Positions 21,929 through 40,101 of a DNA stretch of 64,000 bases are shown here, piece after piece. Within the stretch, counting starts at the first letter, position 1; the number at the start of each line of letters is the position of its first letter. The translations under genes and the position numbers were made by a program. The notes beneath the pieces were generated by a model. The model saw nothing but the letters and a program-made list of their open reading frames with translations. It was not told the origin of the DNA and made no database searches. The stretch comes from an uncultured Bacteroidales bacterium (GTDB lineage Bacteria > Bacteroidota > Bacteroidia > Bacteroidales > Bacteroidaceae): NCBI GenBank assembly GCA_902798685.1, contig CADBXO010000005.1:21064-85063 (forward strand), read 5' to 3'.

Positions 21929-21959
21929 AGTACCAAACGGAACCGTCCCCAATGGTACT
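21929..21959. repeat. Dispersed palindrome copy 2
   Basis: AGTACCA and TGGTACT arms flank a GG-AACCGTCCCC centre. It straddles the purF stop codon and lies between purF and the FNT gene. It resembles the palindromes at 16104, 40197 and 60977 in having GTAC/GACGC outer arms and a GGGG/CCCC-type core. Confidence 0.55.
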
Positions 21960-23346
21960 ACTTTTCAACAGCGTGACCGTAGAGGTTTGTGGGGTAATCA
22001 CCGTTGAAGCAGGCGGTGCAGAGCTGGCACTTCTCCATTGAGCGGCCGGAAGCTTTGTACAGGGCTTCAAGTGAGAGATAATAGAGCGAATCGGCTCCTA
22101 TGTAGTCACGGATCTCCTCGACTGAATGCTTGGCACCGATAAGTTCCTCGTATGTGCCGGTGTCCACGCCGTAGTAGCAGGGATATGCGTACTTGGGGCT
22201 TGCTATGCAGACATGGACCTCGGTGGCTCCTGCCTCACGCAGCATACGTACAATCTGACGCGATGTGGTTCCGCGAACAATTGAATCATCAATCAGAATC
22301 ACACGCTTGCCGTTCACGATACTGCGCACGGGTGACAGCTTCATCTTGACACCCTTGTCACGAAGTTCCTGGGCCGGCTGGATGAACGTACGGCCTACGT
22401 ATTTGCTCTTGAGCAGACCCATCTCATACGGAATGCCGCTGGCCTCAGCGTAACCCATTGCGGCGCTCAGGCTTGAATCAGGCACGCCTACAACGATATC
22501 AGCCTCAACAGGATGCTCCTCGTAAAGCAGGCGGCCAGAGAGCTTACGGAAAGAATGTACGTTGCAGCCCTCAATGTCACTGTCCGGACGTGCAAAATAG
22601 ATGTACTCCATAACGCACATACGGTTGCTCTTGAGCTTTGAATAGTCATTGGAGCGTATGCCGTGATGATCTATTGATATAACCTCACCGGGATTAACGT
22701 CACGGATGAATTCGGCGCCGATGGCATCGAACGCGCAGGTCTCGCTTGCAACCACATAACCGTTGCCCAGCTTGGCAATTGAGAGCGGATGGAATCCGTA
22801 CTTGTCACGGCAGGCATAGATGCGGTTGGGAGTCATTATTACCAGTGAGAAGGCACCCTCAATCATATTCAGGGCGTTGATGATATTGACAATCCTGTCC
22901 TCCTCGCTGGGATCCTTCTTGATCAGATGGGCAAAGAGCTCACTGTCAGAGGTGGTCTGCAGCAGGCTGCCGCGACGTTCAAGATAATAGCGTAACTCCT
23001 TGGAGTTGATGATATTACCGTTGTGTGCTATAGCAAAGTTACCCGTGTAATGATGGAATGTGAACGGCTGGATGTTCTCCATTCCGCCCACATTGGTAGT
23101 CGGATAACGTACGTGGCCGATGGCTATGTTTCCGGTCAGTTCATCAAGATGCTTCTGGCCGAATATCTCAATCACCAGACCGGCGCCCTTGTGCAGGTGG
23201 AACTGCCCCTCTGAATCGGCCGATACTATACCGCAACCCTGCTGACCTCTGTGCTGCAGGCTGTGCAGTGCATAATAGGCATACTGTGCGGCGTTCTCCA
23301 CACCGTAGATGCCAAATACTCCACATTCGTGATGCAATTCCTCCAT
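21958..23346 (-). CDS. purF: Amidophosphoribosyltransferase PurF
   Basis: 462 residues. PurF makes phosphoribosylamine from PRPP and glutamine, the first step of purine synthesis. A 7-residue propeptide (MEELHHE) precedes the nucleophile in CGVFGIYG; the oxyanion loop is AIAHNGNIIN; the PRPP loop is ILIDDSIVRGTT; the C-terminal CQLCTACFNGDYP is typical. It is the complete, active-looking member of the two PurF homologues in this window. Last enzyme gene in the minus-strand glutamine/nitrogen block, 10 bases after carB. Confidence 0.96.
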   Translation of the reverse strand: MEELHHECGVFGIYGVENAAQYAYYALHSLQHRGQQGCGIVSADSEGQFHLHKGAGLVIEIFGQKHLDELTGNIAIGHVRYPTTNVGGMENIQPFTFHHYTGNFAIAHNGNIINSKELRYYLERRGSLLQTTSDSELFAHLIKKDPSEEDRIVNIINALNMIEGAFSLVIMTPNRIYACRDKYGFHPLSIAKLGNGYVVASETCAFDAIGAEFIRDVNPGEVISIDHHGIRSNDYSKLKSNRMCVMEYIYFARPDSDIEGCNVHSFRKLSGRLLYEEHPVEADIVVGVPDSSLSAAMGYAEASGIPYEMGLLKSKYVGRTFIQPAQELRDKGVKMKLSPVRSIVNGKRVILIDDSIVRGTTSRQIVRMLREAGATEVHVCIASPKYAYPCYYGVDTGTYEELIGAKHSVEEIRDYIGADSLYYLSLEALYKASGRSMEKCQLCTACFNGDYPTNLYGHAVEK

Positions 23347-23356
23347 ATCCGGTTAT

Positions 23357-26300
23357 TTATACGTATTCGTCAATTCTCTTTATAGCCAGTCCGTCAACAC
23401 CGATCTTGCAGAACGCATAGATGAATGCGCTTGCCTGACGTGCGTTGGTAATGAGCGGAATGTTGAAGTCAACGGCTGTACGCCTGATCTGATATCCGTT
23501 CTGAAGCTCACGTGCTGTATTGTTCTTGGGGATATTGATAGCCAGGTCAATCTTACCGCCGCGCATATAGTCAATTACGTTAGGCTTCTCCTCTGAATCC
23601 GGCCAGTGAAGCACCTCCTTGACGGTTATGCCGTTCTCCTCAAGGAACTTGGCGGTACCGCTGGTGGCGTACAGGTTATAGCCGTAATCACTGAGTATGC
23701 GTGCTGCATCCAGCAGGTCGATCTTGGACTTTGTCGGGCCCGATGAGAGCAGGACGCCCTTCTCCTTTGAAGGAACGCGAGTGCCTACAGATATCATACT
23801 CTTGAGCAGAGCCTCATGGTAGTTGTCACCTATGCAGGCAACCTCACCCGTTGAAGCCATGTCTACGCCCAGTATAGGATCGGCCTTGAGAAGACGTGCA
23901 AATGAGAACTGTGAGCACTTGACACCCACGTAGTCAATATCGGCAAACGTCTTACCAAAGGGCTCAACCTCCTTGCCCAGCATGATCTCTGTAGCCATGC
24001 CGATGAAGTTGAACTTGGTGATCTTGCTTACGAACGGGAAGCTTCGTGAAGCACGCAGGTTACACTCGATAACCTTGATGCTGTTCTCCTTGGCCAGGAA
24101 CTGTATGTTGAAGGGACCTGAGATGTTCAGGGCACCTGCAATCTTCTTGGATATCTTCTTGATCTGACGGATGGTCTCGTAGTAGAGCTTCTGAGCCGGG
24201 AATACCACGGTAGCGTCACCAGAGTGAACGCCGGCAAACTCAATGTGCTCGCTGATGGCGTAGCACTTGATTACACCGTTCTGAGCCACGGCATCAATCT
24301 CAACCTCCTTGGCACGCTGAAGGAACTCGGTAACCACAACGGGATGCTCCTGACTTACCACAGCTGCATTATTAAGGGCTGTCTCTAGCTCTGCACGGTC
24401 ACTTACCACGCGCATTGCAGCACCTGAGAGCACGTATGAAGGACGGATGAGCACAGGCAGACCCACCTCATCTACAAAACTCCAGATGTCATCCATGCTG
24501 GTAAGCTCCTTCCAACGCGGCTGGTCAATACCCAGAGAGTCACACATCTCGGAGAACTTCTGACGGTCCTCAGCCATATCGATTGACTTGGCCGATGTTC
24601 CCAGGATATTCACGCCCTCGTGGTCAAGCAGCAGCGCCAGGTTGTTTGGAATCTGTCCGCCGGTTGATACGATAACGCCCTTGGGAGCCTCCAGATCGCA
24701 TATATCAAGTACACGCTCCAGTGTCAGTTCATCAAAGAACAGACGGTCACATGTATCATAATCGGTACTTACAGTCTCAGGATTGTAGTTGATCATCACT
24801 GAACGGTAACCCATCTCCTGAATCTTCTTTACGGCAGCCACACCGCACCAGTCAAACTCAACGCTTGAACCGATTCGGTAAGCACCGCTACCCAGAACAA
24901 TTACGGACTTGCCGTCCTGCTCAAACTGAACATCGTTCTCTGAGCCGTTATAAGTCAGATAGAGGTAGTTGGTAAAGGCGGGATACTCACCGGCCAGCGT
25001 ATCAATCTGCTTTACAACCGGCAGAATGCCCAGACCCTTGCGGTATTTGCGTACTGCAGCCTGTTTCTCATGCGGATTGAGCTTGTCACCGGCAATGGTG
25101 ATCTTACCAATCTGATAGTCGCTGAATCCCATGCACTTGGCCTCACGCAGCAAGTCCTCGCTTACCTTCTCAAGACCTCCTGCAGCAGCCAGCTGCTCCT
25201 TAATATTGTGGATGTTTGCCAGACGGCACAGGAACCACTTGTCAATCTTGGTAAGGTCATGCAGCTTGTCAACGGTATAACCCTGAGCAAATGCCTGCTC
25301 AATGGCCGGCAGACGACGGTCGGTAGGATTGACCAGCTCGGCCTCAATATCGGGAACGTTGACGTTGTTGCCAACGAATCCGTGCAGGCCCTGACCGACC
25401 ATACGCATACCCTTCTGGATAGCCTCCTCAAAGGTGCGTCCTATTGACATAACCTCACCGACAGACTTCATTGAAGAGCCTATCAGACGTGAAACACCCT
25501 CAAACTTACCCAGGTCCCAACGAGGTATCTTACATACCACGTAGTCCAGAGCGGGTTCAAAGCAGGCCGATGTAACCTTGGTTACAGAGTTGGGAATTTC
25601 ATCCAAGCCATAACCCAGACCCAGTTTAGCAGCAACAAATGCCAGAGGATAACCTGTAGCCTTTGAAGCCAGGGCCGATGAGCGGCTCAGACGTGCGTTA
25701 ACCTCAATCACGCGGTAATCATCAGAGTTGGGATCCAGAGCATACTGGACGTTGCACTCTCCTACTATACCCACGTGACGTATGATGTCGATTGCTATGC
25801 GGCGCAGCTTGTGGTACTCATGGTCGCTGAGTGTCTGTGACGGAGCCACAACCACACTCTCACCGGTATGGATACCCAGCGGGTCGAAGTTCTCCATGTT
25901 GCAGACCGTGATGCAGTTGTCATAACGGTCACGTACAACCTCGTACTCAATCTCCTTCCAGCCCTTGAGTGACTCCTCGACCAGAATCTGCGGAGAATAT
26001 GAGAATGCTGATGCTGCAACCTTCTTGAGTTCCTCATCATTGGAGCAGAATCCTGAACCCAGACCGCCAAGTGTATAAGCGGCACGTACGATTACGGGAT
26101 AACCTATCTCCTTTACAACCTTGAGGGCCTCCTCCATATTGTTGACAGCCTCACTGCGAGGTGTCTTGACGCCGATTGAGCGCATCATATCGGCAAACAG
26201 TTCACGGTCCTCAGTGTTGATGATGGCCTGAACCGGAGTACCCAATACCTTGATGCCGTATTTCTCCAGAATACCGCTCTGGTACAGCTCAACGCCGCAG

Positions 26301-26581
26301 TTCAGGGCTGTCTGACCGCCGAATGCAAGCATGATGCCGTCGGGATGCTCCTTCTGGATAACCTTCTCCACGAAAGCAGGAGTGATGGGCAGGTAATAGA
26401 TGGCATCGGCCACACCCTCGGATGTCTGGACCGTAGCCACATTGGGATTTATAAGGATTGTGAACTTGCCATCCTCACGCAGAGCCTTGAGGGCCTGTGA
26501 ACCGGAATAGTCAAACTCACCTGACTGACCTATCTTGAGTGCTCCTGAACCGAGCACAAGTACTCTCTTCACATCTTCCAT
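23357..26581 (-). CDS. carB: Carbamoyl-phosphate synthase large subunit
   Basis: 1074 residues, full length. Two homologous ATP-grasp halves: the first opens VLVLGSGALKIGQSGEFDYS, the second VIVLGSGAYRIGSSVEFDW. A C-terminal MGS-like regulatory domain follows (SKIDLLDAARILSDYGYNLY). It makes carbamoyl phosphate from bicarbonate, ATP and ammonia channelled from CarA, for pyrimidines and arginine. carA ends 4 bases upstream. Confidence 0.98.
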   Translation of the reverse strand: MEDVKRVLVLGSGALKIGQSGEFDYSGSQALKALREDGKFTILINPNVATVQTSEGVADAIYYLPITPAFVEKVIQKEHPDGIMLAFGGQTALNCGVELYQSGILEKYGIKVLGTPVQAIINTEDRELFADMMRSIGVKTPRSEAVNNMEEALKVVKEIGYPVIVRAAYTLGGLGSGFCSNDEELKKVAASAFSYSPQILVEESLKGWKEIEYEVVRDRYDNCITVCNMENFDPLGIHTGESVVVAPSQTLSDHEYHKLRRIAIDIIRHVGIVGECNVQYALDPNSDDYRVIEVNARLSRSSALASKATGYPLAFVAAKLGLGYGLDEIPNSVTKVTSACFEPALDYVVCKIPRWDLGKFEGVSRLIGSSMKSVGEVMSIGRTFEEAIQKGMRMVGQGLHGFVGNNVNVPDIEAELVNPTDRRLPAIEQAFAQGYTVDKLHDLTKIDKWFLCRLANIHNIKEQLAAAGGLEKVSEDLLREAKCMGFSDYQIGKITIAGDKLNPHEKQAAVRKYRKGLGILPVVKQIDTLAGEYPAFTNYLYLTYNGSENDVQFEQDGKSVIVLGSGAYRIGSSVEFDWCGVAAVKKIQEMGYRSVMINYNPETVSTDYDTCDRLFFDELTLERVLDICDLEAPKGVIVSTGGQIPNNLALLLDHEGVNILGTSAKSIDMAEDRQKFSEMCDSLGIDQPRWKELTSMDDIWSFVDEVGLPVLIRPSYVLSGAAMRVVSDRAELETALNNAAVVSQEHPVVVTEFLQRAKEVEIDAVAQNGVIKCYAISEHIEFAGVHSGDATVVFPAQKLYYETIRQIKKISKKIAGALNISGPFNIQFLAKENSIKVIECNLRASRSFPFVSKITKFNFIGMATEIMLGKEVEPFGKTFADIDYVGVKCSQFSFARLLKADPILGVDMASTGEVACIGDNYHEALLKSMISVGTRVPSKEKGVLLSSGPTKSKIDLLDAARILSDYGYNLYATSGTAKFLEENGITVKEVLHWPDSEEKPNVIDYMRGGKIDLAINIPKNNTARELQNGYQIRRTAVDFNIPLITNARQASAFIYAFCKIGVDGLAIKRIDEYV

Positions 26582-26585
26582 AGCA

Positions 26586-27665
26586 TCATTTCTTTGAATA
26601 GTTCTTCATGTTTTCAACAAACAGACCGAACAGGTTGCCTGTATCGGTAGGTCCGCTCGATGCCTCAGGATGGAACTGGGTTGAGAAGAAAGGCTTTGTC
26701 TTATGCTTGATACCCTCATTGGTACCGTCGTTCAGGTTCTCGAACATACGCTCCCAGTCTGAAGGAAGTGTATTGTCATCGATGGCAAAGCCGTGGTTCT
26801 GTGATGTCACAAAGCACTTGTGAGTGCCCGGAATGCGTACGGTCTGGTTGTGACCGCGATGACCGTATTTGAGCTTGTATGTCTTGGCGCCTGCGGCAAG
26901 AGCCAGAAGCTGGTTGCCAAGGCAGATACCCATGATGGGACGGTCCTGCTGGAGAGCCTTGCGGATATGCTCAACGGTTACACCGCACATTGCAGGGTCA
27001 CCGGGGCCGTTAGAGATGAACAGACCGTCATAATCCTCGTTTGAGAAGTCATTATCCCAAGGTACGCGCTTGATCTGAACGTCATAGTCAAGCAGGCAGC
27101 GCAGGATGTTGTTCTTCATTCCGCAGTCTACCATGAGCACCTTGTACTTGCCGTTTCCGTAGTGCTTGATCTCGGGGCATGAAACCTGAGCTACCAGGTT
27201 GTCCTTGTTGGGATCATAGAACGGAATATCCTCATCACCGAATACTATCTTGCCCAGCATGGCGCCTTTCTCACGCAGACGCTTGGTAAGAGCTCTTGTG
27301 TCAATGCCGTAGATTCCGGGAACCTCCCACTTCTTAAGCCATTCACCAAGACTCTTGGCCGAGTCCCAATGGCTGTATTCAGCCGAATACTGAGAAATGA
27401 CAAGAGCCGAACACTGAATTCTGTCCGACTCATAGAACTTGGAAATGCCATTGACTACCTCGTCACCGGGAACTCCGTAATTGCCTATCAAAGGGAATGT
27501 AGGCACCAGGATCTGTCCCTTGTATGACGGGTCACTCAAACTCTCCGGATAACCGGTCATGGCTGTGTAGAAGACCAACTCGCCCGATACGGACTTCTCG
27601 TAGCCGAACGAGCGGCCACGGTACCGGGTACCGTCTTCAAGAATAAGAACTGCTTCTCTGTCCAT
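26586..27665 (-). CDS. carA: Carbamoyl-phosphate synthase small subunit
   Basis: 359 residues. N-terminal CarA domain (EAVLILEDGTRYRGRSFGYE) and a class I glutamine amidotransferase with nucleophile Cys in GICLGNQLLALA and the His-Glu pair in FHPEASSGPTDT. It hydrolyses glutamine and passes ammonia to CarB. It lies 9 bases after dapL and 4 before carB. Confidence 0.98.
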   Translation of the reverse strand: MDREAVLILEDGTRYRGRSFGYEKSVSGELVFYTAMTGYPESLSDPSYKGQILVPTFPLIGNYGVPGDEVVNGISKFYESDRIQCSALVISQYSAEYSHWDSAKSLGEWLKKWEVPGIYGIDTRALTKRLREKGAMLGKIVFGDEDIPFYDPNKDNLVAQVSCPEIKHYGNGKYKVLMVDCGMKNNILRCLLDYDVQIKRVPWDNDFSNEDYDGLFISNGPGDPAMCGVTVEHIRKALQQDRPIMGICLGNQLLALAAGAKTYKLKYGHRGHNQTVRIPGTHKCFVTSQNHGFAIDDNTLPSDWERMFENLNDGTNEGIKHKTKPFFSTQFHPEASSGPTDTGNLFGLFVENMKNYSKK

Positions 27666-29708: not shown

Positions 29709-31055
29709 TTACTTGTTTTTAAGGTATGCGTCAACCTGTGCGGCAGTCTCACGTCCGCTTGCCAGAGCCCTTACAACAAGGCTGGCACCGTTCTTGGCAT
29801 CACCTGCCAGGAACACGTTCTCAGCGTACTGAGGATGCTCGGGCTTGAGGAATCCCATAGCCAGCAGCACCATGTCGCACTCAATGATCTCCTTGTTTCC
29901 GGTCAGTTTCATCTGAGGACGGCCGCCGTTAGGATCCGGTACCCACTCCACAGTCTCAACCTCAACGCCCTTAAGGTTACCCTTGCCGTCATCCAGGAAC
30001 TTGTTTGATGTCAGGCACCAGCGACGCTCGCAACCCTCCTCATGGCTGGTTGTGGTCTTGAGGATGTTAGGCCACTGCGGCCAGGGTGTTGCGGGGTTGT
30101 AGCCGATTGGCGGCTTGGGCATGATCTCAATCTGGGTAACGCTTACGGCACCCTGACGATGGCATGTTCCGATGCAGTCACTGCCGGTATCACCGCCACC
30201 GATAACAAGTACCTTCTTGCCCTTGGCCGATACAGTCTCCTCGGGGGTGAACTGGAATCCGGCCAGACGCAGGTTCTGCTGGGTAAGCATCTGCAGTGCA
30301 AAGTATACGCCCTTGAGTTCACGTCCCGGAATCTTAAGGTCACGGGCGGTGGGTGTACCGTTTGATATGATGTATGCGTCAAAGCCCTCAGGAAGCTTGT
30401 TCAGGTCAACGGGGGTGTTGAACTTGAACTTGATTCCCTCCTGCTCCATGATCTCCATACGGCGGTCAATCACATACTTGTCAAGCTTGAAGTTAGGAAT
30501 ACCGTAACGGACCAGACCACCTGCTGAAGGCATCTTGTCGAACAGAGTCACCTCATAACCCAGGCAGTTCAGACGGACAGAAGCAGAGAGTCCGGCAGGA
30601 CCTGCACCTATGATGGCAACCTTCTTTCCGTTGCGTGCGTATGTCTTTGGCTTGATATAACCCTCACGGTATGCATGTTCAATTATTGAGCACTCGTTCT
30701 CACGGATGGTTACGGGAGCATCGATGCAAAGGTTCAGCGCGCAGCTCTTCTCGCAGAGTGCCGGGCAGATACGGCCCGTGAACTCCGGAAAATCATTGGT
30801 GGCTGAGAGCAGCTTGTATGCCAGTTCCCACTTGCCTTTGTAAACGGCATCCTGCCATTCGGGCTGCTTGTTGCCCAGCGGGCATGCCCAGTGACAGAAG
30901 GGTACGCCGCAATCCATGCAGCGTGATGCCTGCAACTGACGGCTGCTGTCGTTCAGCGTCTGCTCAACCTCACTGAAGTCGGCTATTCTCTCATATACTG
31001 GTCTATGACCGGCGTCCTGTCTGGGTACGGTCAGGAAAGCTCTTGGATTTCCCAT
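29709..31055 (-). CDS. gltD: Glutamate synthase small subunit
   Basis: 448 residues. N-terminal iron-sulfur region with Cys-rich CMDCGVPFCHWACPLGN and CPALCEKSC, then FAD-binding AIIGAGPAGLSASVRL and NADPH-binding VIGGGDTGSDCIGT. It feeds electrons from NADPH to GltB for glutamate formation from glutamine and 2-oxoglutarate. It follows gltB after 19 bases. Confidence 0.97.
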   Translation of the reverse strand: MGNPRAFLTVPRQDAGHRPVYERIADFSEVEQTLNDSSRQLQASRCMDCGVPFCHWACPLGNKQPEWQDAVYKGKWELAYKLLSATNDFPEFTGRICPALCEKSCALNLCIDAPVTIRENECSIIEHAYREGYIKPKTYARNGKKVAIIGAGPAGLSASVRLNCLGYEVTLFDKMPSAGGLVRYGIPNFKLDKYVIDRRMEIMEQEGIKFKFNTPVDLNKLPEGFDAYIISNGTPTARDLKIPGRELKGVYFALQMLTQQNLRLAGFQFTPEETVSAKGKKVLVIGGGDTGSDCIGTCHRQGAVSVTQIEIMPKPPIGYNPATPWPQWPNILKTTTSHEEGCERRWCLTSNKFLDDGKGNLKGVEVETVEWVPDPNGGRPQMKLTGNKEIIECDMVLLAMGFLKPEHPQYAENVFLAGDAKNGASLVVRALASGRETAAQVDAYLKNK

Positions 31056-31074: not shown

Positions 31075-34000
31075 TTAGTAATCACGCTGAACATTATCAA
31101 TCTTCTGCTGCAGCGCCTTCATACGCTCCTCCTGCAGGATACGGCGGTACTCGATAGGAGTAACCTGTATGAACTCACCTACATACTGAGCCCAGTTGTC
31201 AAGCATCTTCTTGGCCAATGCTGAGCCGGTATATTTGTAGTGCTTCTCAATCAGTCCGCGCAACTCGTCACGACCGGCCTTGTCCTCAATCAGGTCAAGC
31301 TCGATCATATCCATGTTGCAGTAGTAGTCAAAGTCATGGTTCTTGTCCCAGACGTAAGCCAGACCGCCTGACATACCTGCGGCGAAGTTACGTCCTGTAG
31401 TACCCAGAACAACCACGCGACCGCCGGTCATATACTCGCAGCAGTGGTCACCTGCGCCCTCAACTACGGCTGTGGCGCCGGAGTTGCGTACAGCGAAACG
31501 CTCACCTGCACGACCGTTGATGAATATCTCACCGCTGGTGGCACCGTAAAGGATTGTGTTACCGGCTATGATGTTCTCAGATGCGTCAAACTTGCTCTCG
31601 ACGGGCGGGCATATAGCGATGCGGCCACCTGAAAGGCCCTTTCCTACATAGTCATTAGCCTCACCTTCAAGTTTGAAGTTAACACCCTTCATAAGGAATG
31701 CGCCGAAGCTCTGTCCAGCCGATCCCTTGAACTTGACGTTGATGGTGTTATCGGCCAGACCGTCATGTCCGTACTTGCTTGCTATCGCACCTGACAGCAT
31801 TGCACCTGCGGCACGGTCAGTGTTGATTATATCGTATGAAAGGTCAACCTTCTTGCCGTTCTCAATGGCATCGGTCGATGCCTTGATGATCTTCTGGTCA
31901 AGAATCTGACTCAGGTCATGCTTCTGATCCTCCTTCTTATAGAGGTCACCGTCTATCTTGGCCAACAGGCGGCTGAAGTCAAGACCGCGGGTCTTATCGT
32001 TGAACTTGGCGGTATCAATCTCGATAAGGTCTGTACGACCTATGATATCCTCAAACTTGCGGAATCCCATATCGGCCAGCAGTTCCCTTACACCCTCTGC
32101 CATATACATGTAGTAGTTGATAAGGTACTGGCTGTGACCGCGGAACTTGGCGCGCAGAGCGGGATCCTGTGTTGCAACACCTACAGGGCAGGCGTTTGTA
32201 TGACACTTACGCATCAGCAAGCATCCCAGAACGATAAGCTGAGCAGTTCCGAATCCGAACTCGCCTGCACCCAGCAGAGCCATTGAAATGACATCACGCG
32301 GGGTCTTGAGCTGTCCGTCAACCTGAACCTCGATCTCCTTACGCAGACCGTTCAGAACCAGAGTCTGCTGAGTCTCGGAAAGGCCGATTTCAGGTGAGAT
32401 ACCTGCATAACGGATTGATGATGCGGGTGATGCACCTGTACCGCCCTCAGAGCCTGAGATAACCACCAGGTCAGCCTTTGCCTTGGCAACACCGGCTGCG
32501 ATGGTACCTACTCCGCTCTCGGCAACCAGCTTGACGCTGATCTTGGCCTTGGGGTTCACGTTACGCAGATCATAGATCAACTGTGCCAGATCCTCGATTG
32601 AGTAGATGTCGTGATGAGGAGGAGGCGAAATCAGAGAAATTCCGGGAATTGAGTTACGTGTACGGGCAATGATCTCGTTCACCTTGAATCCGGGCAGCTG
32701 ACCACCCTCACCCGGCTTAGCACCCTGGGCAATCTTGATCTGGATCTCCATTGCGTTGACCAGATACTCGGCAGTTACACCGAATCGGCCCGATGCCACC
32801 TGCTTGATACGGCTGCTCAGTGATACGCCGTCCACATCATTGTGGAAACGGTCGCTGTCCTCACCACCCTCACCGGTATTGCTGCGTGAGTCAAGAGTGT
32901 TAAGGGCAATTGCGATAGCCTCGTGAGCCTCCTTGCTGATGGCACCGAATGACATTGCTGCACCGATAAAGCGCTTGACGATGTTCTCGGCAGGCTCTAC
33001 CTCATCAATAGAGATGGGGTTGCTCTTGAACTTGAAGTAGTTACGCAGGAACAGCGGCTCCTGACGGTCGTCAACGATAGAGCAGAATTCCTTGAATTTC
33101 TTGTAGCTTCCCAGACGGGTTGCAAGTTGCAATGTTGAAATGGCCTCAGGTGTCCATGCATGACGTATACCGTCCTTGCGGAATGCATATTGGCCTATGA
33201 ACGGAAGCACATCATCGGTCTCGGTCTTGCCGAATCCCTGCTCCTGCATACGCTGGGCGTCCTTGCAGATACCCTCCAGAGTTACACCGCCTACGGTTGA
33301 TGATGCTGTTCCGAAATACTTGGCCAGAAGCTCCTGGCTCAAGCCGATAGATTCAAATATCTTGGCACCGCGGTATGAACGTATGGTGCTGATACCCATC
33401 TTACTGAGTATCTTCTTAAGGCCCTTGTCGACGGCCTTGATGTAGTTGTTCTGAGCGGTCTCGTAGTCAAGTTGAATCTCTCCCTTCTTAACAAGATCGT
33501 CAATCACTGCAAATGCCATATAGGGGTTGACGGCACTTGCACCATAGCCCATAAGCAGAGCCACATGCATCACCTCGCGGATCTCACCGCTCTCAACGAT
33601 AAGAGCAGTCTGGACACGCTTCTGGATTGATACAAGATAGTGGTGAATTGCGCTGACGGCAAGAAGTGAAGGAATTGCGGCGTGTGTTTCGTCAATGCCG
33701 CGGTCGCTCAGGATAATGTAGTTGATACCTGCATCAACTGACTTTTCGGCCTCATGGCAAAGATTTTCTATGGCTTCGGCCATACCCTTGGCACCTTTTG
33801 ATTTCTCAAACAGGATGGGCAGGACCTCTGTATTGAATCCCTTGTAACGGATGTTGCAAAGGGTATCGAGTTCAGTGTTGGTAAGAACCGGCTGCGGCAG
33901 ACGTACCATCTTGCAGTGGCCCTCGCTGGGTGTAAGGATGTTCATGCCTACGGCGCCGATGTACTCGGTCAGTGACATTACAAGCTCCTCACGGATGGGG

Positions 34001-35538
34001 TCGATAGGCGGGTTGGTAACCTGCGCAAACTGCTGTCGGAAGTAGTTAAACAGCAACTGAGGACGGTCAGAAAGGACAGCCAGCTGGGTATCGTTACCCA
34101 TTGATGAAAGCGGCTCCTGTGCAGTCTGACACATAGGAACTATTATACGGTCGATATCCTCACGGGTGTAGTCAAAGGCACGCAGACGACGGCTGAACTC
34201 AGGCACATCATTCGCAGCCTTACGGCCGCTCTTAAGCTTACCCAGCTCTACACGTCCGGCACTGAGCCATCCGGCATAGTCAAGTTCGCTTGCAAGAGCA
34301 TCCTTAACCTCGTTGTTACGGTAAATCTGACCGTTGTCAGTATCAATAAGGAGAATCTTACCGGGCTGCAGTTTACCCTTCTCCACTACCTTTGATGCAT
34401 CAACCTGGATGCAACCAACCTCGGATGCCATAATCAGCATGCCGTCATCGGTAATAAGGTAACGTGCAGGACGCAGACCGTTACGGTCCAGCATACCTCC
34501 GGCGTAACGGCCATCAGTAAAGAGCATTGCGGCAGGACCGTCCCACGGCTCCATAAGGATTGAATGGTACTCGTAGAATGCCTTCAGCTTGTCGCTTATG
34601 GGGTTCTTCTCATTGAATGACTCAGGAATCATCATGGCCATTGCATGAGGCAGAGACATGCCTGAACGCACAAAGAACTCCAGTGCATTATCGAACGATG
34701 CACTGTCGCTCATATCGGGCTGAACGATAGGATGAATATCGCTCACATCGCCCAGAGCCGGTGATGAAAGCACGCTCTCGCGGGCCTCCATCCAACCGCG
34801 GTTTCCGCGAATGGTGTTAATCTCACCGTTGTGAGCCAGCATTCGGAACGGCTGTGCAAGCGGCCATGTGGGGAATGTGTTGGTACTGAAACGGGAATGA
34901 ACCATAGCAAGTCCGCTCGTAAAGAACGGACTGCTAAGATCCGGATAGTACTCACGCAACTGGGTTGATGTGAGCATTCCCTTATAGACCATTATGCGGC
35001 ATGAAAGTGATACGATATAGAAATTACGGTCATCTATACGCTTCTCAGTGTGCTTGCGCACCTTATAAAGAAGAGTCTCCAGACCATCGGCCTCGGATGC
35101 ACCGGTAATGAATATCTGAACTGTGCGCGGCTCGGTAGCACGTGCGGCTTCGCCCAGGATATTGCTGTTAACGGGTACTTCACGAACGTTGGTAAGTACA
35201 AGTCCCATCTTGGACGCCTCCTCACGGATAATGTCCAGATACTTGTCACCAAGGGCCTTGTCCTTGGGCAGGAATACGAGTCCTGTTCCGTAACTAAGGC
35301 GCTCAGGCACCGGGATACCCTGCAAGAGAATAAACTCGTGCGGTATCTGGAGTGTGATTCCGGCTCCGTCGCCCGACTTGTTGTCGGCAGCCTCGGCACC
35401 ACGGTGCTTCATGTTCTCAAGCAGTGTAAGAGCGCTGTCAACAAGCTGGTGTGTCTTTCCCCCCTTAAGGTTGACCATCATACCTATACCACAGGCATCA
35501 TGCTCATTCTGAGGGTCGTATAAACCGTATTTTTTCAT
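31075..35538 (-). CDS. gltB: Glutamate synthase large subunit
   Basis: 1487 residues, full-length GOGAT alpha. A 15-residue propeptide precedes the N-terminal nucleophile in HDACGIGMMVN; the class II amidotransferase domain runs to about residue 430; the central and FMN-binding domains contain SGSEGGTGASPASSIRYAG; the 3Fe-4S cysteines are in CLLMRKCHTNACPVGVAT; the C-terminal beta-helix (GXG repeats) is present. It is 64 bases downstream of glnN, so GS and GOGAT can be made from one transcript. Confidence 0.98.
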   Translation of the reverse strand: MKKYGLYDPQNEHDACGIGMMVNLKGGKTHQLVDSALTLLENMKHRGAEAADNKSGDGAGITLQIPHEFILLQGIPVPERLSYGTGLVFLPKDKALGDKYLDIIREEASKMGLVLTNVREVPVNSNILGEAARATEPRTVQIFITGASEADGLETLLYKVRKHTEKRIDDRNFYIVSLSCRIMVYKGMLTSTQLREYYPDLSSPFFTSGLAMVHSRFSTNTFPTWPLAQPFRMLAHNGEINTIRGNRGWMEARESVLSSPALGDVSDIHPIVQPDMSDSASFDNALEFFVRSGMSLPHAMAMMIPESFNEKNPISDKLKAFYEYHSILMEPWDGPAAMLFTDGRYAGGMLDRNGLRPARYLITDDGMLIMASEVGCIQVDASKVVEKGKLQPGKILLIDTDNGQIYRNNEVKDALASELDYAGWLSAGRVELGKLKSGRKAANDVPEFSRRLRAFDYTREDIDRIIVPMCQTAQEPLSSMGNDTQLAVLSDRPQLLFNYFRQQFAQVTNPPIDPIREELVMSLTEYIGAVGMNILTPSEGHCKMVRLPQPVLTNTELDTLCNIRYKGFNTEVLPILFEKSKGAKGMAEAIENLCHEAEKSVDAGINYIILSDRGIDETHAAIPSLLAVSAIHHYLVSIQKRVQTALIVESGEIREVMHVALLMGYGASAVNPYMAFAVIDDLVKKGEIQLDYETAQNNYIKAVDKGLKKILSKMGISTIRSYRGAKIFESIGLSQELLAKYFGTASSTVGGVTLEGICKDAQRMQEQGFGKTETDDVLPFIGQYAFRKDGIRHAWTPEAISTLQLATRLGSYKKFKEFCSIVDDRQEPLFLRNYFKFKSNPISIDEVEPAENIVKRFIGAAMSFGAISKEAHEAIAIALNTLDSRSNTGEGGEDSDRFHNDVDGVSLSSRIKQVASGRFGVTAEYLVNAMEIQIKIAQGAKPGEGGQLPGFKVNEIIARTRNSIPGISLISPPPHHDIYSIEDLAQLIYDLRNVNPKAKISVKLVAESGVGTIAAGVAKAKADLVVISGSEGGTGASPASSIRYAGISPEIGLSETQQTLVLNGLRKEIEVQVDGQLKTPRDVISMALLGAGEFGFGTAQLIVLGCLLMRKCHTNACPVGVATQDPALRAKFRGHSQYLINYYMYMAEGVRELLADMGFRKFEDIIGRTDLIEIDTAKFNDKTRGLDFSRLLAKIDGDLYKKEDQKHDLSQILDQKIIKASTDAIENGKKVDLSYDIINTDRAAGAMLSGAIASKYGHDGLADNTINVKFKGSAGQSFGAFLMKGVNFKLEGEANDYVGKGLSGGRIAICPPVESKFDASENIIAGNTILYGATSGEIFINGRAGERFAVRNSGATAVVEGAGDHCCEYMTGGRVVVLGTTGRNFAAGMSGGLAYVWDKNHDFDYYCNMDMIELDLIEDKAGRDELRGLIEKHYKYTGSALAKKMLDNWAQYVGEFIQVTPIEYRRILQEERMKALQQKIDNVQRDY

Positions 35539-35589: not shown

Positions 35590-35623
35590 GAATTGTTGCT
35601 CATCAGTTGATGAACAACAATTC
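35590..35623 (-). other. Hairpin overlapping the glnN stop codon
   Basis: Arms GAATTGTTG (35590-35598) and CAACAATTC (35615-35623) with an inner CATCA/TGATG pair form a long stem that contains the glnN stop codon (35603-35605). No T-tract follows on the minus strand. It could slow termination, limit read-through into gltB or protect mRNA. Confidence 0.5.
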
Positions 35624-37789
35624 ACGATACTTCGGCAGCGGCCACATATCATTGTCAACCACCTCCTCAAGCTTATCGATGGTCTTACGCAGCGGGAACA
35701 GAGACTCGGCAATATCGTGGTAAGCAAGAGCCTTCTCATATTCGCCCTCAATTACGTTAGCCTTCTTGCGGGCCTCGACCATATCATCAACCTGAGTCTT
35801 GAGTTTGTTAACCAAATCAGAGATCTTGGTAACGAATCCCATGCTTACAGCAGCCATATCCTTGTAGTTGTCACCGTAAACATCCTTCATAAGGTCGATG
35901 TTCTTGAGCAGCTTGGTCTGATACTCAAGTGCGGCAGGAATGATGTGGTTGATAGCCATACGACCTGTTACGCGGGCCTCGATCTGTACCTTCTTGGTAT
36001 ATATCTCCCACTTAACCTCGTTGCGGGCCTCAAGTTCCTTCTCGGTGTAAACACCCAGCTTGGTGAACAACTCGATAGCCTTGGGAGTGGTGAATGACTT
36101 GAACATCTCAGGAACGTTGGTCAGAGTATCCAGACCACGCTTCTTGGCCTCAGCCTTCCACTCATCGGTATAACCGTTACCGTCAAAGCATACAACATCA
36201 ATAATGCTCTTGATGATGGGCTTCAGGGTATCCATGATGGCTATGTTCAGAGCCTTACCGGCCTTAAGTTCCTTGTCAACATCGGCCTTGAAGGCAATCA
36301 GCTGCTCGGCTACGGCTGCGTTCAGAGTGGTCATTGCACCAGCGCAGTTTGCGCTTGAACCAACGGCACGGAACTCAAAACGGTTACCGGTGAATGCGAA
36401 CGGTGATGTACGGTTACGGTCGGTGTTATCAACGAATATCTCAGGAATCTCAACCAGACCTACTGACTTACCCTTCTTGCCGGCAATCTCGATAGGAGTA
36501 TCGGACGGAACCTCAAGCAGTTTCTTGAGCACGGCAGTCATTGTACGACCAAGGAAGGCCGATACGATGGCGGGAGGTGCCTCGTTGGCGCCCAGACGGT
36601 GAGCGTTGGTAGCGGTTGCGATAGAAGCCTTCAGGATATCGTTGTGCTTCTGTACGGCAGCCAGAACGTTTACAAAGAATGTAACGAACTGCAGGTTACC
36701 CATAGCATCCTTACCGGGAGCAAGCAGCAGTGTGCCGGTATCGGTACCCAGTGACCAGTTGTTGTGCTTACCTGAACCGTTGATACCATCGAACGGCTTC
36801 TCGTGGAACAGAACAACGAATCCGTGCTTGCGGGCGATGCTGTTCATCACGTTCATCATCTGCTGGTTCTGATCGTTTGAAAGGTTGGTCTCACCGTAGA
36901 TAGGAGCAAGCTCGAACTGGTTAGGAGCAACCTCGTTATGACGTGTCTTAAGAGGAATACCCAGCTTGTAACCGGCAATCTCGATGTCGCGCATGAAAGC
37001 GGCAACACGTGAAGGAATGGCACCGAAGTAGTGGTCATCCAGCTGCTGGTTCTTTGATGAGGCGTGACCCATCAGTGTGCGGCCTGTAAGCATCAGGTCA
37101 GGACGTGCTGCGTAGAGGTCCTCATCAACCAGGAAGTACTCCTGCTCCCAACCCAGGTATGAGTATACCTTCTTTACTTTGGGATCAAACAGACGGCAGA
37201 TAGGCAGAGCGGCGTCGTTTACAGCCTTCAGAGCCTTCTTAAGAGGAGTCTTGTAATCAAGAGCCTCACCGGTATATGAAATAAATACTGTAGGTATGCA
37301 GAGAGTGTCATCCTGTATGAACACAGGTGATGTAGGATCCCATGCTGTGTAACCGCGGGCCTCGAAAGTGGCACGGATACCGCCGCTGGGGAATGATGAT
37401 GCATCAGGCTCCTGCTGTGCAAGTGCTTTGCCGTCGAAAGTCTCGATCATACCGCCCTTGCCATCGTACTCCATGAATGAGTCGTGCTTCTCGGCAGTAC
37501 CGTCAGTAAGCGGCTGGAACCAGTGTGTAACATGTGTTACTCCGTGCTCCATAGCCCAGGTCTTCATACCTGCAGCAACTCCATCAGCAGTCTTGCGGTC
37601 CAGAGGCTCGCCATTGTCAATGCAGTTCACAATAGCTTTGAAGGTCTTGTCATCAAGATACTTGCGCATCTTGTCACGGTTGAACACCAACTCACCGAAG
37701 TATTCGGAAGTCTTCACGGCGGGTGTCTCGACTACAGCAGCCTTCTTCTTGAAAGCATCCTGTATCACATCAAATCTAAGTTCACTCAT
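35603..37789 (-). CDS. glnN: Type III glutamine synthetase
   Basis: 728 residues from ATG at 37789 (MSELRFDVIQDAFKKKAAVV); the longer frame upstream lies in the leader. GSIII is the long form found in Bacteroidota and cyanobacteria. Visible motifs: FQPLTDGTAEKHDSF, GYTAWDPTSPVFIQ, YLGWEQEYFLVD (metal site), KTRHNEVAPNQFELAPIYGE, and GINGSGKHNNWSLGTDTG (nucleotide/glutamate site). It fixes ammonia onto glutamate. It is followed by gltB-gltD and preceded by a 353-base leader that may control it by attenuation. Confidence 0.98.
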   Translation of the reverse strand: MSELRFDVIQDAFKKKAAVVETPAVKTSEYFGELVFNRDKMRKYLDDKTFKAIVNCIDNGEPLDRKTADGVAAGMKTWAMEHGVTHVTHWFQPLTDGTAEKHDSFMEYDGKGGMIETFDGKALAQQEPDASSFPSGGIRATFEARGYTAWDPTSPVFIQDDTLCIPTVFISYTGEALDYKTPLKKALKAVNDAALPICRLFDPKVKKVYSYLGWEQEYFLVDEDLYAARPDLMLTGRTLMGHASSKNQQLDDHYFGAIPSRVAAFMRDIEIAGYKLGIPLKTRHNEVAPNQFELAPIYGETNLSNDQNQQMMNVMNSIARKHGFVVLFHEKPFDGINGSGKHNNWSLGTDTGTLLLAPGKDAMGNLQFVTFFVNVLAAVQKHNDILKASIATATNAHRLGANEAPPAIVSAFLGRTMTAVLKKLLEVPSDTPIEIAGKKGKSVGLVEIPEIFVDNTDRNRTSPFAFTGNRFEFRAVGSSANCAGAMTTLNAAVAEQLIAFKADVDKELKAGKALNIAIMDTLKPIIKSIIDVVCFDGNGYTDEWKAEAKKRGLDTLTNVPEMFKSFTTPKAIELFTKLGVYTEKELEARNEVKWEIYTKKVQIEARVTGRMAINHIIPAALEYQTKLLKNIDLMKDVYGDNYKDMAAVSMGFVTKISDLVNKLKTQVDDMVEARKKANVIEGEYEKALAYHDIAESLFPLRKTIDKLEEVVDNDMWPLPKYRELLFIN

Positions 37790-37897: not shown

Positions 37898-38005
37898 TTA
37901 CTCCCCGGCTGGAGAGAGAATAGCCAAACAGCCGCAGACATTACGCTTAGGATTGAAACCAACCTCCAGAGCATATCTGAAACCATATTCTATCAACACT
38001 TTCAT
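37898..38005 (-). CDS. Candidate leader peptide of glnN
   Basis: A 35-residue frame (starts MKVLIEYGFRYALEVG, ends LAILSPAGE) in the glnN 5' leader. No Gln/Glu codon run is present; a CGC tripeptide lies at residues 24-26. The RNA around it can form alternative pairings: CGGCTG (complement of 37929-37934) with CAGCCG (37906-37911), or CCAGCC (37907-37912) with GGCTGG of the terminator arm (37855-37860). That pattern suggests an attenuator leader. The peptide could be incidental. Confidence 0.35.
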   Translation of the reverse strand: MKVLIEYGFRYALEVGFNPKRNVCGCLAILSPAGE

Positions 38006-38142: not shown

Positions 38143-39837
38143 TTATTTGTAGGCATTTTCATGTACACCCTTTACTGCACGACCGCTCGGATCGTTCAGT
38201 TTGCGGAAACTTGCATCCCATTTCAGAGCCTCAGCAGTAGAGCAAGCTACGCTTGGTACGCTGGGTACGCACATGGCTGCTGATGCGCTTGGGAAATGCT
38301 CCTCAAATATGCTGCGATAGTAATATTCCTCCTTGTTCATGGGAGTGTTGATGGGGAAACGCTCCTCGGCATGAGCCATCTGCTCATCGGTTACTGCGGC
38401 AGCGGTAATCTCCTTCAGAGTGTCAATCCAACTGTAACCTACTCCATCGCTGAACTGCTCCTTCTGGCGCCATGCAACGCTCTCGGGCAACATATCGGCA
38501 AAAGCCTCACGAACCACACGCTTCTCAATCTCATGACCCGGGCACATCTTAGCCTTGGGGTTCATGCGCATTGCAACATCCAGGAACTCCTTGTCCAGGA
38601 AAGGTACTCGGCCCTCAACGCCCCATGCTGCCAGTGACTTGTTTGCACGCAGGCAGTCATAAAGGTGCAGTTTGGAGAGCTTACGTACAGTTTCCTCATG
38701 AAATGCCTGGGCATCGGGAGCCTTGTGGAAATAGAGATAACCTCCAAATACCTCATCGGCCCCCTCGCCACTCAGCACCATCTTGATTCCCATACTGCGT
38801 ATCACGCGGGCAAGCAGGTACATGGGAGTGCTGGCACGTACCGTGGTAACATCATATGTCTCAATGAAGTATATCACGTCACGAATGGCATCCAGTCCCT
38901 CCTGGACTGTATAGTTGATTTCATGGTGTACTGTACCTATGTGTTCGGCAACCTCGCGAGCCTTAGCCAGATCCGGAGCACCCTTCAGACCAACTGCAAA
39001 CGAGTGCAGACGCGGCCACCATGCCTCCTGCTGGTCATCGGTCTCAACACGGCGTGCAGCGTTTTTCTTTGCTATGGCCGATATCACCGAACTGTCCAGA
39101 CCGCCCGACAGAAGCACTCCGTAAGGAACGTCACACATAAGCTGACGCTTTACGGCAGCCTCAAGGGCATCATGGAGTTCCTCTATGCTGGCGTCGTTGT
39201 CCTTGACAGCCTCATACTTGAACCAGTCACGGGTCCACCAGCGCTCAATATGTCCGGTGCGGCTGCTCAGGAAATGTCCGGGCAGGAACGGCTCGTACTC
39301 AGGGCAGATACCCTCAAGAGCCTTCAGCTCGCTGGCTACGCAGATATGTCCTTCCTTATCCTTGCCTATGTAAAGAGGAATAACGCCTATCGGATCACGG
39401 GCAATCAGGTATTCATCACGCTCGGCATCATAAAGAGCAAAGGCAAAAATACCGTTCAGGCGCTCCAGCATGCGGATAAAGTCCTCCTGGCTGCCGCCTG
39501 CACGAACTGCATCGCGGTAAAGCGCCAGGATAACCTCGCAGTCACTGCCGGTACTGAATGTGTATCGGCCCTCATACTCACGGCGTATTGCCTGATGGTT
39601 GTAAATCTCACCGTTAACGGCCAGCACCTGCAGACGGTCCTCACTGAACAGAGGCTGACCGCCCGACTGGGGATCGACAATACTCAAACGCTCATGAGCC
39701 AGTATGGCAGAGCCTCCGCACCAGATACCGCTCCAGTCCGGACCGCGATGACGAATCCTGCGACTCATTTCCAACGCACGCTGTCGTAACTGCTCTGACT
39801 GCTCCTTAATCCTGAAGATTGAAACTATTCCACACAT
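38143..39837 (-). CDS. asnB: Asparagine synthase B
   Basis: 564 residues. The nucleophile Cys follows Met1 (MCGIVSIFRI). Class II amidotransferase residues are seen in RHRGPDWSGIWC, VNGEIYNHQAI and TGSDCEVILAL; the synthetase PPi loop is LLSGGLDSSVISAIA. It makes asparagine from aspartate, glutamine and ATP. It heads the minus-strand nitrogen block. A leader of about 225 bases with an Asn/Gln codon run and a strong terminator precedes it, so expression is probably set by attenuation. Confidence 0.97.
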   Translation of the reverse strand: MCGIVSIFRIKEQSEQLRQRALEMSRRIRHRGPDWSGIWCGGSAILAHERLSIVDPQSGGQPLFSEDRLQVLAVNGEIYNHQAIRREYEGRYTFSTGSDCEVILALYRDAVRAGGSQEDFIRMLERLNGIFAFALYDAERDEYLIARDPIGVIPLYIGKDKEGHICVASELKALEGICPEYEPFLPGHFLSSRTGHIERWWTRDWFKYEAVKDNDASIEELHDALEAAVKRQLMCDVPYGVLLSGGLDSSVISAIAKKNAARRVETDDQQEAWWPRLHSFAVGLKGAPDLAKAREVAEHIGTVHHEINYTVQEGLDAIRDVIYFIETYDVTTVRASTPMYLLARVIRSMGIKMVLSGEGADEVFGGYLYFHKAPDAQAFHEETVRKLSKLHLYDCLRANKSLAAWGVEGRVPFLDKEFLDVAMRMNPKAKMCPGHEIEKRVVREAFADMLPESVAWRQKEQFSDGVGYSWIDTLKEITAAAVTDEQMAHAEERFPINTPMNKEEYYYRSIFEEHFPSASAAMCVPSVPSVACSTAEALKWDASFRKLNDPSGRAVKGVHENAYK

Positions 39838-39881: not shown

Positions 39882-39914
39882 AAAAAAAAGACTGATCAAA
39901 TTGACCAGTCTTTT
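39882..39914 (-). terminator. Intrinsic terminator in asnB leader (attenuator)
   Basis: Minus strand: AAAAGACTGGTCAA (complement of 39901-39914) pairs with TTGATCAGTCTTTT (complement of 39886-39899), a stem of about 13 bp with one G-U, followed by a run of eight T (39882-39889). It lies between the leader and the asnB start, in the sense direction, so asnB needs read-through or antitermination. Confidence 0.88.
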
Positions 39915-39942
39915 ATGTTTTGTTCTTTATATACCTGAATGA

Positions 39943-40032
39943 TTAGCTTTCCCGCTGGCCAAAAGAAGTAACCATCCGAACCTGATTATTATTCTGGTTC
40001 TGATTCTGCTGGTTATTCTGATTATTATTGGC
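39943..40032 (-). CDS. Candidate asnB leader peptide (Asn/Gln run frame)
   Basis: In this frame 40029 down to 39982 reads 16 codons in a row that are Asn (10) or Gln (6), then VRMVTSFGQRES and a stop at 39943-39945. AAT and AAC alternate, a synonymous change only in this frame. The stop falls just beyond the RNA segment that can pair with the terminator arm. Problem: a TAG sits two codons before the run and no start codon is in this frame. The only ATG (40038-40040) is one frame off and gives an Ile/Arg-rich 37-residue peptide ending at 39927. A one-base sequence error, a frameshift or an odd start is needed. Confidence 0.4.
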   Translation of the reverse strand, partial: ANNNQNNQQNQNQNNNQVRMVTSFGQRES

Positions 40033-40037
40033 CTAGC
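39954..40037 (-). promoter_or_regulatory. asnB attenuator: alternative pairing segments
   Basis: RNA segment 1 GCTAGGCCA (40029-40037) can pair with segment 2 TTGGCCAGC (39954-39962), closing a hairpin around the Asn/Gln codons. Segment 2 (TTGGCCAG, 39955-39962) can instead pair with segment 3 CTGGTCAA (39901-39908), all eight positions with one G-U, which would destroy the terminator. Segment 3 otherwise pairs with segment 4 in the terminator. A ribosome stalled on Asn/Gln codons would cover segment 1 and favour 2:3 (asnB on); one at the stop codon would cover segment 2 and favour 3:4 (asnB off). Confidence 0.65.
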
Positions 40038-40069
40038 CATCGATCTTGTTTTTTGCTAAATTTCAATCG

Positions 40070-40101
40070 CAAAATTACACACTCTATTTGGAACCACCAA
40101 A
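40070..40101 (-). promoter_or_regulatory. asnB promoter
   Basis: Minus strand TTTG (40098-40101), exactly 20 bases, then TAATTTTG (40070-40077): a full match to the Bacteroidota consensus. The predicted start of transcription is about 20 bases before the leader ATG. Confidence 0.75.

Follow-up and report, generated by a model that had tools for sequence, protein, structure and literature searches.

The window, by which we mean the whole 64,000-nucleotide stretch of DNA analyzed here, carries on its minus strand the gene for a glutamine-hydrolysing asparagine synthase (asnB), behind which lie, on the same strand, glnN, gltB, gltD, dapF, dapL, carA, carB, purF, and a formate/nitrite transporter gene. 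The region upstream of asnB had been read in an earlier note as an amino-acid attenuator composed of a consensus promoter, 16 consecutive Asn/Gln codons, and a terminator. The run, the terminator, and the promoter-like boxes are real, and we recovered the run at the same coordinates and with the same counts (10 Asn and 6 Gln). The positions of all features are collected in table 1. The promoter-like boxes TTTG and TAATTTTG, separated by 20 nt, fit what we take to be the Bacteroides-type promoter consensus (TTTG / TAnnTTTG) and are assigned by this consensus only; judging from them, transcription would start roughly 25 nt upstream of the leader open reading frame (ORF). The terminator hairpin (39914-39886) has 13 pairs and a loop of 3, with T's down to 39882. 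Scanning found 2 terminator-like sites in the region versus 1.8 in shuffles, a count as in shuffles. When Rfam models were run on the window, only a tRNA reached the gathering score.

The length of the Asn/Gln run, NNNQNNQQNQNQNNNQ, is far beyond chance. It is the longest such run across the six frames of the window, the runner-up being 10 Gln within a protein ORF, and in random sequences (n = 120) the longest run never exceeded 6 (3–6 when the window was regenerated 60 times under a first-order Markov model, and 4–6 in 60 random 64-kb sequences built with the local dinucleotides).

Table 1. Positions of the asnB leader elements and of the nitrogen-related genes behind them in the window
Feature	Position	Strand	Basis or remark
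Promoter upstream element, TTTG	40098..40101	-	Presumed Bacteroides-type consensus
Promoter downstream element, TAATTTTG (TAnnTTTG)	40070..40077	-	Similar boxes by eye in relatives
Leader ATG	40038..40040	-	Aligned with relatives' in-frame leader ATG; here out of frame with the run
Junction of 16-nt deletion relative to L003/L005/L023	40032..40033	-	Alignment with relatives
Asn/Gln run of 16 codons (proposed as control codons)	39982..40029	-	Conserved in relatives
Segment 1, 5' arm of conserved post-run hairpin, GGATGGTTA	39969..39977	-	Folding and pair counts
Segment 2, antiterminator 5' strand, TTGGCCAG	39955..39962 (CCAG core 39958-39955)	-	Complementarity to segment 3
3' arm of 1:2 hairpin, TAATCATTC, overlapping the Asn/Gln-frame stop	39937..39945	-	Pair counts
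Asn/Gln-frame stop codon, TAA	39943..39945	-	Sequence
ATG-frame stop codon as assembled	39927..39929	-	Sequence
Segment 3, CTGGTCAA, partner of segment 2 or segment 4	39901..39908	-	Complementarity
3:4 intrinsic terminator and T-tract	39882..39914	-	Hairpin scan and covariation
asnB, glutamine-hydrolysing asparagine synthase	38143..39837	-	NCBIfam NF006949/TIGR01536
glnN, type III glutamine synthetase	35603..37789	-	GSIII_N; no NCBIfam match at 1e-20
gltB	31075..35538	-	Family match
gltD	29709..31055	-	Family match
carA, glutamine amidotransferase	26586..27665	-	Family match
carB	23357..26581	-	Family match
purF, glutamine amidotransferase	21958..23346	-	Family match

Asn/Gln Leaders within the Genus

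We searched for asnB in 61 genomes drawn from the genus and the order to which the window belongs. Of these, 37 represent the genus, and 23 of the 37 gave a match; the match in G034 is purF, which leaves 22 genomes. An Asn/Gln leader lies directly before asnB in 20 of the 22. In G033, it precedes glnB-amtB, which asnB follows, and in G019, it is followed by a porin-like gene and glnB where the contig ends, asnB being on another contig ("porin-like" is a name guessed from the sequence of this gene, for which Pfam gives no match at 1e-8). All 22 genomes with an asnB match consequently have an Asn/Gln leader, although for G019 we infer the link to asnB across a contig break. In two drafts, G018 (L284) and G006 (L023), asnB itself is interrupted or shortened.

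The earlier note had proposed looking for a conserved run with an in-frame ATG in relatives. Run length differs among the asnB-type leaders (13–16 Asn/Gln codons in the intact ones), yet 18 of the 20 hold the aligned ATG, the run, and the stop in one open frame, as in L003 (peptide MARILAYTANNNQNNQQNQNQNNNQVRMVTSFGQRES) and L002 (peptide MAKGLVFVTNNNQQNNQNQNNNQVLMVAPFDQRES); the two exceptions are the window and L009 (G005). The Asn codons of asnB leaders comprise 146 AAT and 28 AAC; those of eight genes of the window operon comprise 189 AAC and 47 AAT.

A covariance-model search had been the second check proposed in the earlier note. Our model (R1), built from 15 leaders (14 of asnB and one of glnB) and blind to reading frame, yielded 61 matches in 24 of the 37 genus genomes, and 57 of the matches carry an Asn/Gln leader ORF. 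The other four (L188, L193, L196, and L197) are terminators without such an ORF, for which we dropped the leader reading. According to the genes behind them, the 57 leaders divide into asnB (20), glnB (22), glmS (8), pyrG (5), and purF (1, in G034) types, plus the one before the porin-like gene and glnB in G019. The downstream gene could be read in 54 of 57 cases and was always an ammonium-assimilation or glutamine-amidotransferase gene, placed directly after the leader or, in G019, one gene further on; for the glnB type, glnB was read directly downstream in 19 of 22, the others being L141, L144, and L181, the last at a contig edge. Examples of the encoded peptides are MFIGFKNITTVQLNNNQQQNNQNQNNNQVPMVIPFDRSGM (glnB type), MDRVLTYSSFHNQVDNNQNQNNNQVLNNQFCSSSRTIC (pyrG type), and MEGKVTYNCLSNQMNDKQNLNNNQVPVAPCCFTSRII (glmS type), and another glmS leader, SNQMNDKQNLNNNQ, has Asn/Gln codons within different flanks. 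Judged by these sequences, the asnB leader is one member of a set, in which leaders of one build stand before asnB, before glnB-amtB, and in some species before glmS, pyrG, or purF.

The glmS genes provide a further count: among 24 that exceed the NCBIfam cut-off in the genus, upstream scanning found an Asn/Gln leader before 13, carB directly upstream of 5, and neither for 6, one of which is in the window's own genome. R1 detected 8 of these 13 leaders and missed 5, and a degenerate pattern search returned glmS-type leaders only, in 9 of the 37 genomes. In the window's own genome, neither glmS nor pyrG is preceded by an Asn/Gln leader. G010 and G034 have leaders and no asnB match, and the 13 genus genomes without an R1 match (G001, G028, G031, G032, and nine others) also lack an asnB match; with the exception of G004, they are likewise devoid of a glmS match above the cut-off, and three of these 12 are at least 96% complete.

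Two observations concern the relationships between leader types. The glnB leaders L112, L139, L141, L142, L203, and L204 carry segments 2, 3, and 4 of the asnB type (GACCAGC...GACTGGTCA), a pattern suggestive of exchange among leaders that are related. In G034 (L205, G034:C24:12506-12622), an asnB-type leader stands ahead of purF-pyrG, and a double change in it (CCGG with CCGG) preserves the 2:3 pairing.

Beyond the genus, R1 produced weak matches in 18 of 148 other genomes of the order (149 with the window's own), and the three loci examined (L198–L200) are terminators without an Asn/Gln leader. A glnB search gave matches in 57 of 198 genomes of the order; we examined 30 of these loci, some with short flanks (e.g., L235), and recognized no such leader at the 29 that lie outside the window's genome. 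Short Asn/Gln-rich stretches (5 of 8 residues) occur at glnB loci L214, L228, and L230. Likewise, none of the 75 asnB loci outside the genus (of 80) has an Asn/Gln leader before asnB in the flank scanned, with 10 of the 75 having less than 2.5 kb upstream, such that a leader before glnB could be missed; a few Asn/Gln-rich stretches are present elsewhere or on the other strand. Among the loci examined, the leader was recognized only in the genus, and more distant leaders with a different sequence might escape such searches.

Pairing Segments and Folding

The pairing scheme of the earlier note comprised a 1:2 hairpin, a 2:3 antiterminator, and a 3:4 terminator of 13 pairs with a T-tract. For the terminator, over 55 distinct leaders, 97.9% of cells are paired, 74 cells show double changes and the covariation score is 0.381, each value being reached in 0 of 500 shuffles; the number of pair types does not exceed that in shuffles.

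The 1:2 pairing as first drawn (GCTAGGCCA, 40037-40029, with TTGGCCAGC) can be formed in the window, but it is absent in that form from relatives, and we rejected it because the deletion junction (40033/40032) falls within its left arm. A segment 1 located between the ATG and the run in relatives was rejected as well: its duplex energies are not clearly better than those of shuffles (median fraction of shuffles 0.145 for asnB, 0.03 for glnB, 0.13 for glmS, and 0.12 for pyrG), and for this reason we prefer as 1:2 a conserved hairpin just after the run, formed by GGATGGTTA and TAATCATTC. Its covariation was measured on 20 hand-chosen rows (14 asnB, 1 purF, and 5 glnB, of which 17 distinct), asnB-like glnB leaders such as L142 being omitted; 98.7% of cells are paired, with 10 double-change cells and a covariation score of 0.359 (each 0/500 shuffles), although the double changes all fall in one pair, the outermost, and shuffles match it in the number of changed pairs and of pair types. 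Both the terminator and the post-run hairpin are thus predicted structures supported by covariation. In the glnB leader L142, the hairpin has 5 pairs only. The glmS, pyrG, and G019 leaders can form hairpins of different sequence around CCAG; by helix length alone, 1:2 is not significant for the pyrG or G019 leaders.

The antiterminator of the earlier note, in which segment 2 (TTGGCCAG) pairs with segment 3 (CTGGTCAA), is present in the window, and its complementarity holds throughout the family: the CCAG (or CCGG) core forms at least six contiguous pairs with the 5' arm of the terminator in 48 of 48 leaders (from a set of 49, L181 being omitted as truncated by the edge of its contig), and the spacing between core and segment 3 differs among leaders by single bases. 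The median fraction of mononucleotide shuffles with an equal or better duplex energy is 0.03 for asnB, 0 for glnB, 0.03 for glmS, and 0.01 for pyrG leaders, with 0.01 and 0.10 for the single purF and G019 leaders. The helix has 85% of its cells paired, compared with at most 45% when slid. What the 2:3 pairing lacks is covariation support: 500 of 500 shuffles reach both its paired percentage and its score, and the helix slid by +3 scores higher (0.147 vs. 0.119). The leader stop lies 11–17 nt from the first base of the CCRG core in 47 of 48 leaders (L182 was measured at an upstream CCAG), a placement at which the ribosome would cover segment 2.

Folding gave mixed results for 2:3. When the RNA is freed from 9–15 nt past the last control codon, with the run masked, the minimum-energy fold is 2:3 in five of nine leaders (asnB L002 and L003, glnB L168, purF, and pyrG L183), and another fold wins in the other four (glmS L186 and L191, pyrG L174, and the G019 leader). 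With fixed ribosome masks and before segment 4 is made, 2:3 is near zero for the L003, glmS, pyrG, and G019 leaders and partial for purF; for L002 and L168, it is high with a stalled ribosome but also without any ribosome (1.00 and 0.73). With a ribosome at the stop codon, 2:3 is zero in these seven leaders. In these fixed-mask models, an effect of the ribosome is hence seen only at the stop codon, and the role of a stalled ribosome does not appear. For the complete leader at equilibrium, the terminator is preferred in every case, so that any switching would be kinetic.

These elements suggest the following scenario. With Asn-tRNA and Gln-tRNA well charged, the ribosome would cross the Asn/Gln run and stop in the 3' arm of the post-run hairpin, where it would cover the CCAG segment; the 3:4 terminator could then form and asnB would be off. 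Under a shortage of either amino acid, the ribosome would slow or stall in the run, and near the end of the run it would cover the 5' arm of the 1:2 hairpin, which would free CCAG to pair with the CTGG of the terminator 5' arm (2:3), so that transcription would continue. A stall early in the run would leave the 1:2 hairpin free to form and CCAG would not be released. Genes for AsnRS and GlnRS (asnS and glnS) are present, over the cut-off, and charging should therefore follow free Asn and Gln.

The features that characterize trp-type attenuators are largely found here, namely an intrinsic terminator, a leader, a promoter (by consensus only), a 1:2 hairpin, and the placement of the stop; the translatable Asn/Gln-rich leader ORF is found in 18 of 20 asnB-type leaders, the window copy and L009 being without it. 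The first interpretation of the locus would have fallen had relatives lacked either the run or a conserved pairing; the run is found in them, and the terminator and post-run hairpin are conserved. It is supported, with the corrections made above to segment 1 and below to the frame. We consider it very likely, from the comparison of leaders, that what precedes asnB is a ribosome-mediated transcription attenuator with control codons for Asn and Gln.

The Frame Break and Alternative Readings

As assembled, the window copy contains no translatable Asn/Gln ORF. The earlier note had pointed out that a TAG lies just upstream of the run, that no start codon is in frame with it and that the ATG (40040) is off frame, all of which we confirm; the frameshift or different start that it considered, besides a one-base error, need not be invoked. 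Compared with L003, L005, and L023, the window copy is missing 16 nt between ATGGCTAG and GCCAAT, and in relatives the ATG and the run share one frame. It is a frame-broken example of the leader family. In L009, the frame is broken by a one-base insertion inside the run.

The loss of 16 nt is either a mutation or an error in the assembly of the window genome, a draft that is 83.7% complete. If the deletion is real, regulation would be disabled in that strain while the family would still be an attenuator, a reading compatible with ours and one that we take seriously, at somewhat below an even chance. All but the 16 nt is intact, L009 is frame-broken as well, and a ribosome at the later ATG-frame stop would let segments 2 and 3 pair before segment 4 is made (P 0.69 in the simulation), which would favor expression. 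Conversely, the deletion rests on one draft assembly, the run shows no decay, and amtB of the same genome (L277:869-1753) encodes only 294 aa, versus about 409–426 in most listed relatives; this short amtB may be due to mutation or to an assembly problem, and could point to assembly trouble in the window genome.

The remaining alternatives question the attenuator itself. The run might be a low-complexity DNA repeat of the AATAATCAG type and the hairpin an ordinary terminator, with no peptide-based sensing, as the absence of an in-frame start in the window copy, the broken frame of L009, and the lack of covariation support for 2:3 would allow. We find this improbable, given that ATG, run, and stop share one frame in 18 of 20 asnB-type matches, that leader classes with different flanks keep Asn/Gln codons (for instance the second glmS leader quoted above), that hairpin and terminator covary, and that the downstream genes constitute one pathway group. 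About equally improbable is the action on the leaders of a trans-acting regulator or of a glutamine-binding RNA, the peptide being secondary. The hairpins are conserved, and cyanobacterial glnA-type RNAs accompany genes for PII, glutamine synthetase, and ammonium transporters (PMC2864571); but the leader has no Rfam match, the hairpin sequences vary between classes whereas the coded Asn/Gln run is common to all, and the stop is placed as in attenuators. Finally, it is hardly credible that the ATG frame is the true leader in the window strain and responds to Ile or Arg: this frame does run for 37 codons, 9 of them for Ile and 6 for Arg (MARPIIIRITSRIRTRIIIRFGWLLLLASGKANHSGI, beginning MARPIIIRI and stopping at 39929-39927), and enterobacterial thr and ilv leaders are Ile-rich, but the same ATG is in the Asn/Gln frame in 18 of 20 asnB-type genus leaders, the Ile and Arg codons are a shifted reading of the AAT/CAG run, and the downstream genes concern Asn/Gln metabolism.

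Known Attenuators and a Putative Nitrogen Regulon

Known attenuators of the ribosome-mediated type respond to Trp, His, Leu, Ile/Val, Thr, and Phe. In the genus itself, Trp-type leaders (WWWR) with terminators occur at L293 and L295 (about 1500–1700), the first (MKKINSFFWWWRSLQLN) scoring over the cut-off of the Rfam family Bacteroid-trp (RF01692) and the second (MIMTANFWWWRNSGFKKS) below it, and the ribosome-attenuation device is thus probably in use in this genus; RF01692 also matches L294 but has no match in the window or in the window's genome (G000). The Asn/Gln leaders resemble trp leaders, Bacteroid-trp included, in having a leader ORF with control codons, alternative hairpins, a terminator, and a biosynthetic gene behind, but they use two amino acids rather than one, with 13–16 control codons in intact asnB leaders, and their 1:2 hairpin comes after the run. 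The his, thr, leu, and ilv leader peptides of enterobacteria also contain runs of control codons, and those of thr and ilv sense more than one amino acid; the difference is that here leaders of one build precede several nitrogen operons. T-box leaders of asparagine genes in Firmicutes likewise control a terminator through tRNA charging, but the T-box binds tRNA without translation. The cyanobacterial glnA and Downstream-peptide RNAs (RF01739 and RF01704) are RNA elements by nitrogen genes that bind glutamine directly, whereas the proposed sensor of the Asn/Gln leaders is tRNA charging read by the ribosome. Neither these two families nor the T-box has a match in the window.

We found no paper on an Asn/Gln leader among the titles and abstract openings of the open-access papers listed for our queries, a scope outside which most subscription journals lie. 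Bacteroid-trp, glnA, and Downstream-peptide motifs are tabulated together (PMC2864571), 5' UTRs of B. thetaiotaomicron contain short ORFs reminiscent of leader peptides (PMC7366714), and flavobacteria offer clues of leader peptides ahead of amino-acid operons (PMC9723704); a paper on Actinobacteria (PMC1262725) lacks the terms asparagine, glutamine, and asn, and PMC5009743 has nothing relevant. The attenuation mechanism itself is known, and what is new is probably the amino-acid specificity, together with a probable use on several operons, functions that we infer from the leaders.

How far the control would extend in the window depends on read-through. Our claim is firm for asnB and uncertain for glnN, gltB, gltD, carA, carB, and purF, because glnN has promoter-like boxes of its own (by eye) and is often preceded by its own leader. 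In the window, a second leader ORF with promoter-like boxes lies before glnN (37898-38005, minus strand; peptide MKVLIEYGFRYALEVGFNPKRNVCGCLAILSPAGE), with a terminator-like hairpin at about 37864-37836 (GGCTGGCC...GGACTGGCC). An (S/I)PAGE ending before the stop and a terminator are present in 14 of 21 glnN upstream regions and missing in 7, the L021 peptide having 13 residues; the codons of these leaders are not consistently Asn/Gln-rich.

The Asn/Gln leaders probably form a nitrogen-assimilation regulon of the genus. The stronger proposition that the whole regulon, namely asnB, the genes for PII and the ammonium transporter, and in some species glmS, pyrG, and purF, is under related Asn/Gln attenuators, with the rate of the ribosome over the run as the nitrogen sensor of the genus, we regard as evenly balanced. 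At least one record of the genus (L031) comes from sheep reticulum, where the use of ammonia is of consequence for the host. Standing before several operons and reading the two amide amino acids together, such a leader would be a translation-based nitrogen sensor, and if this is true a long mixed Asn/Gln run would do the job carried out elsewhere by DNA-binding regulators such as NtrC or GlnR.
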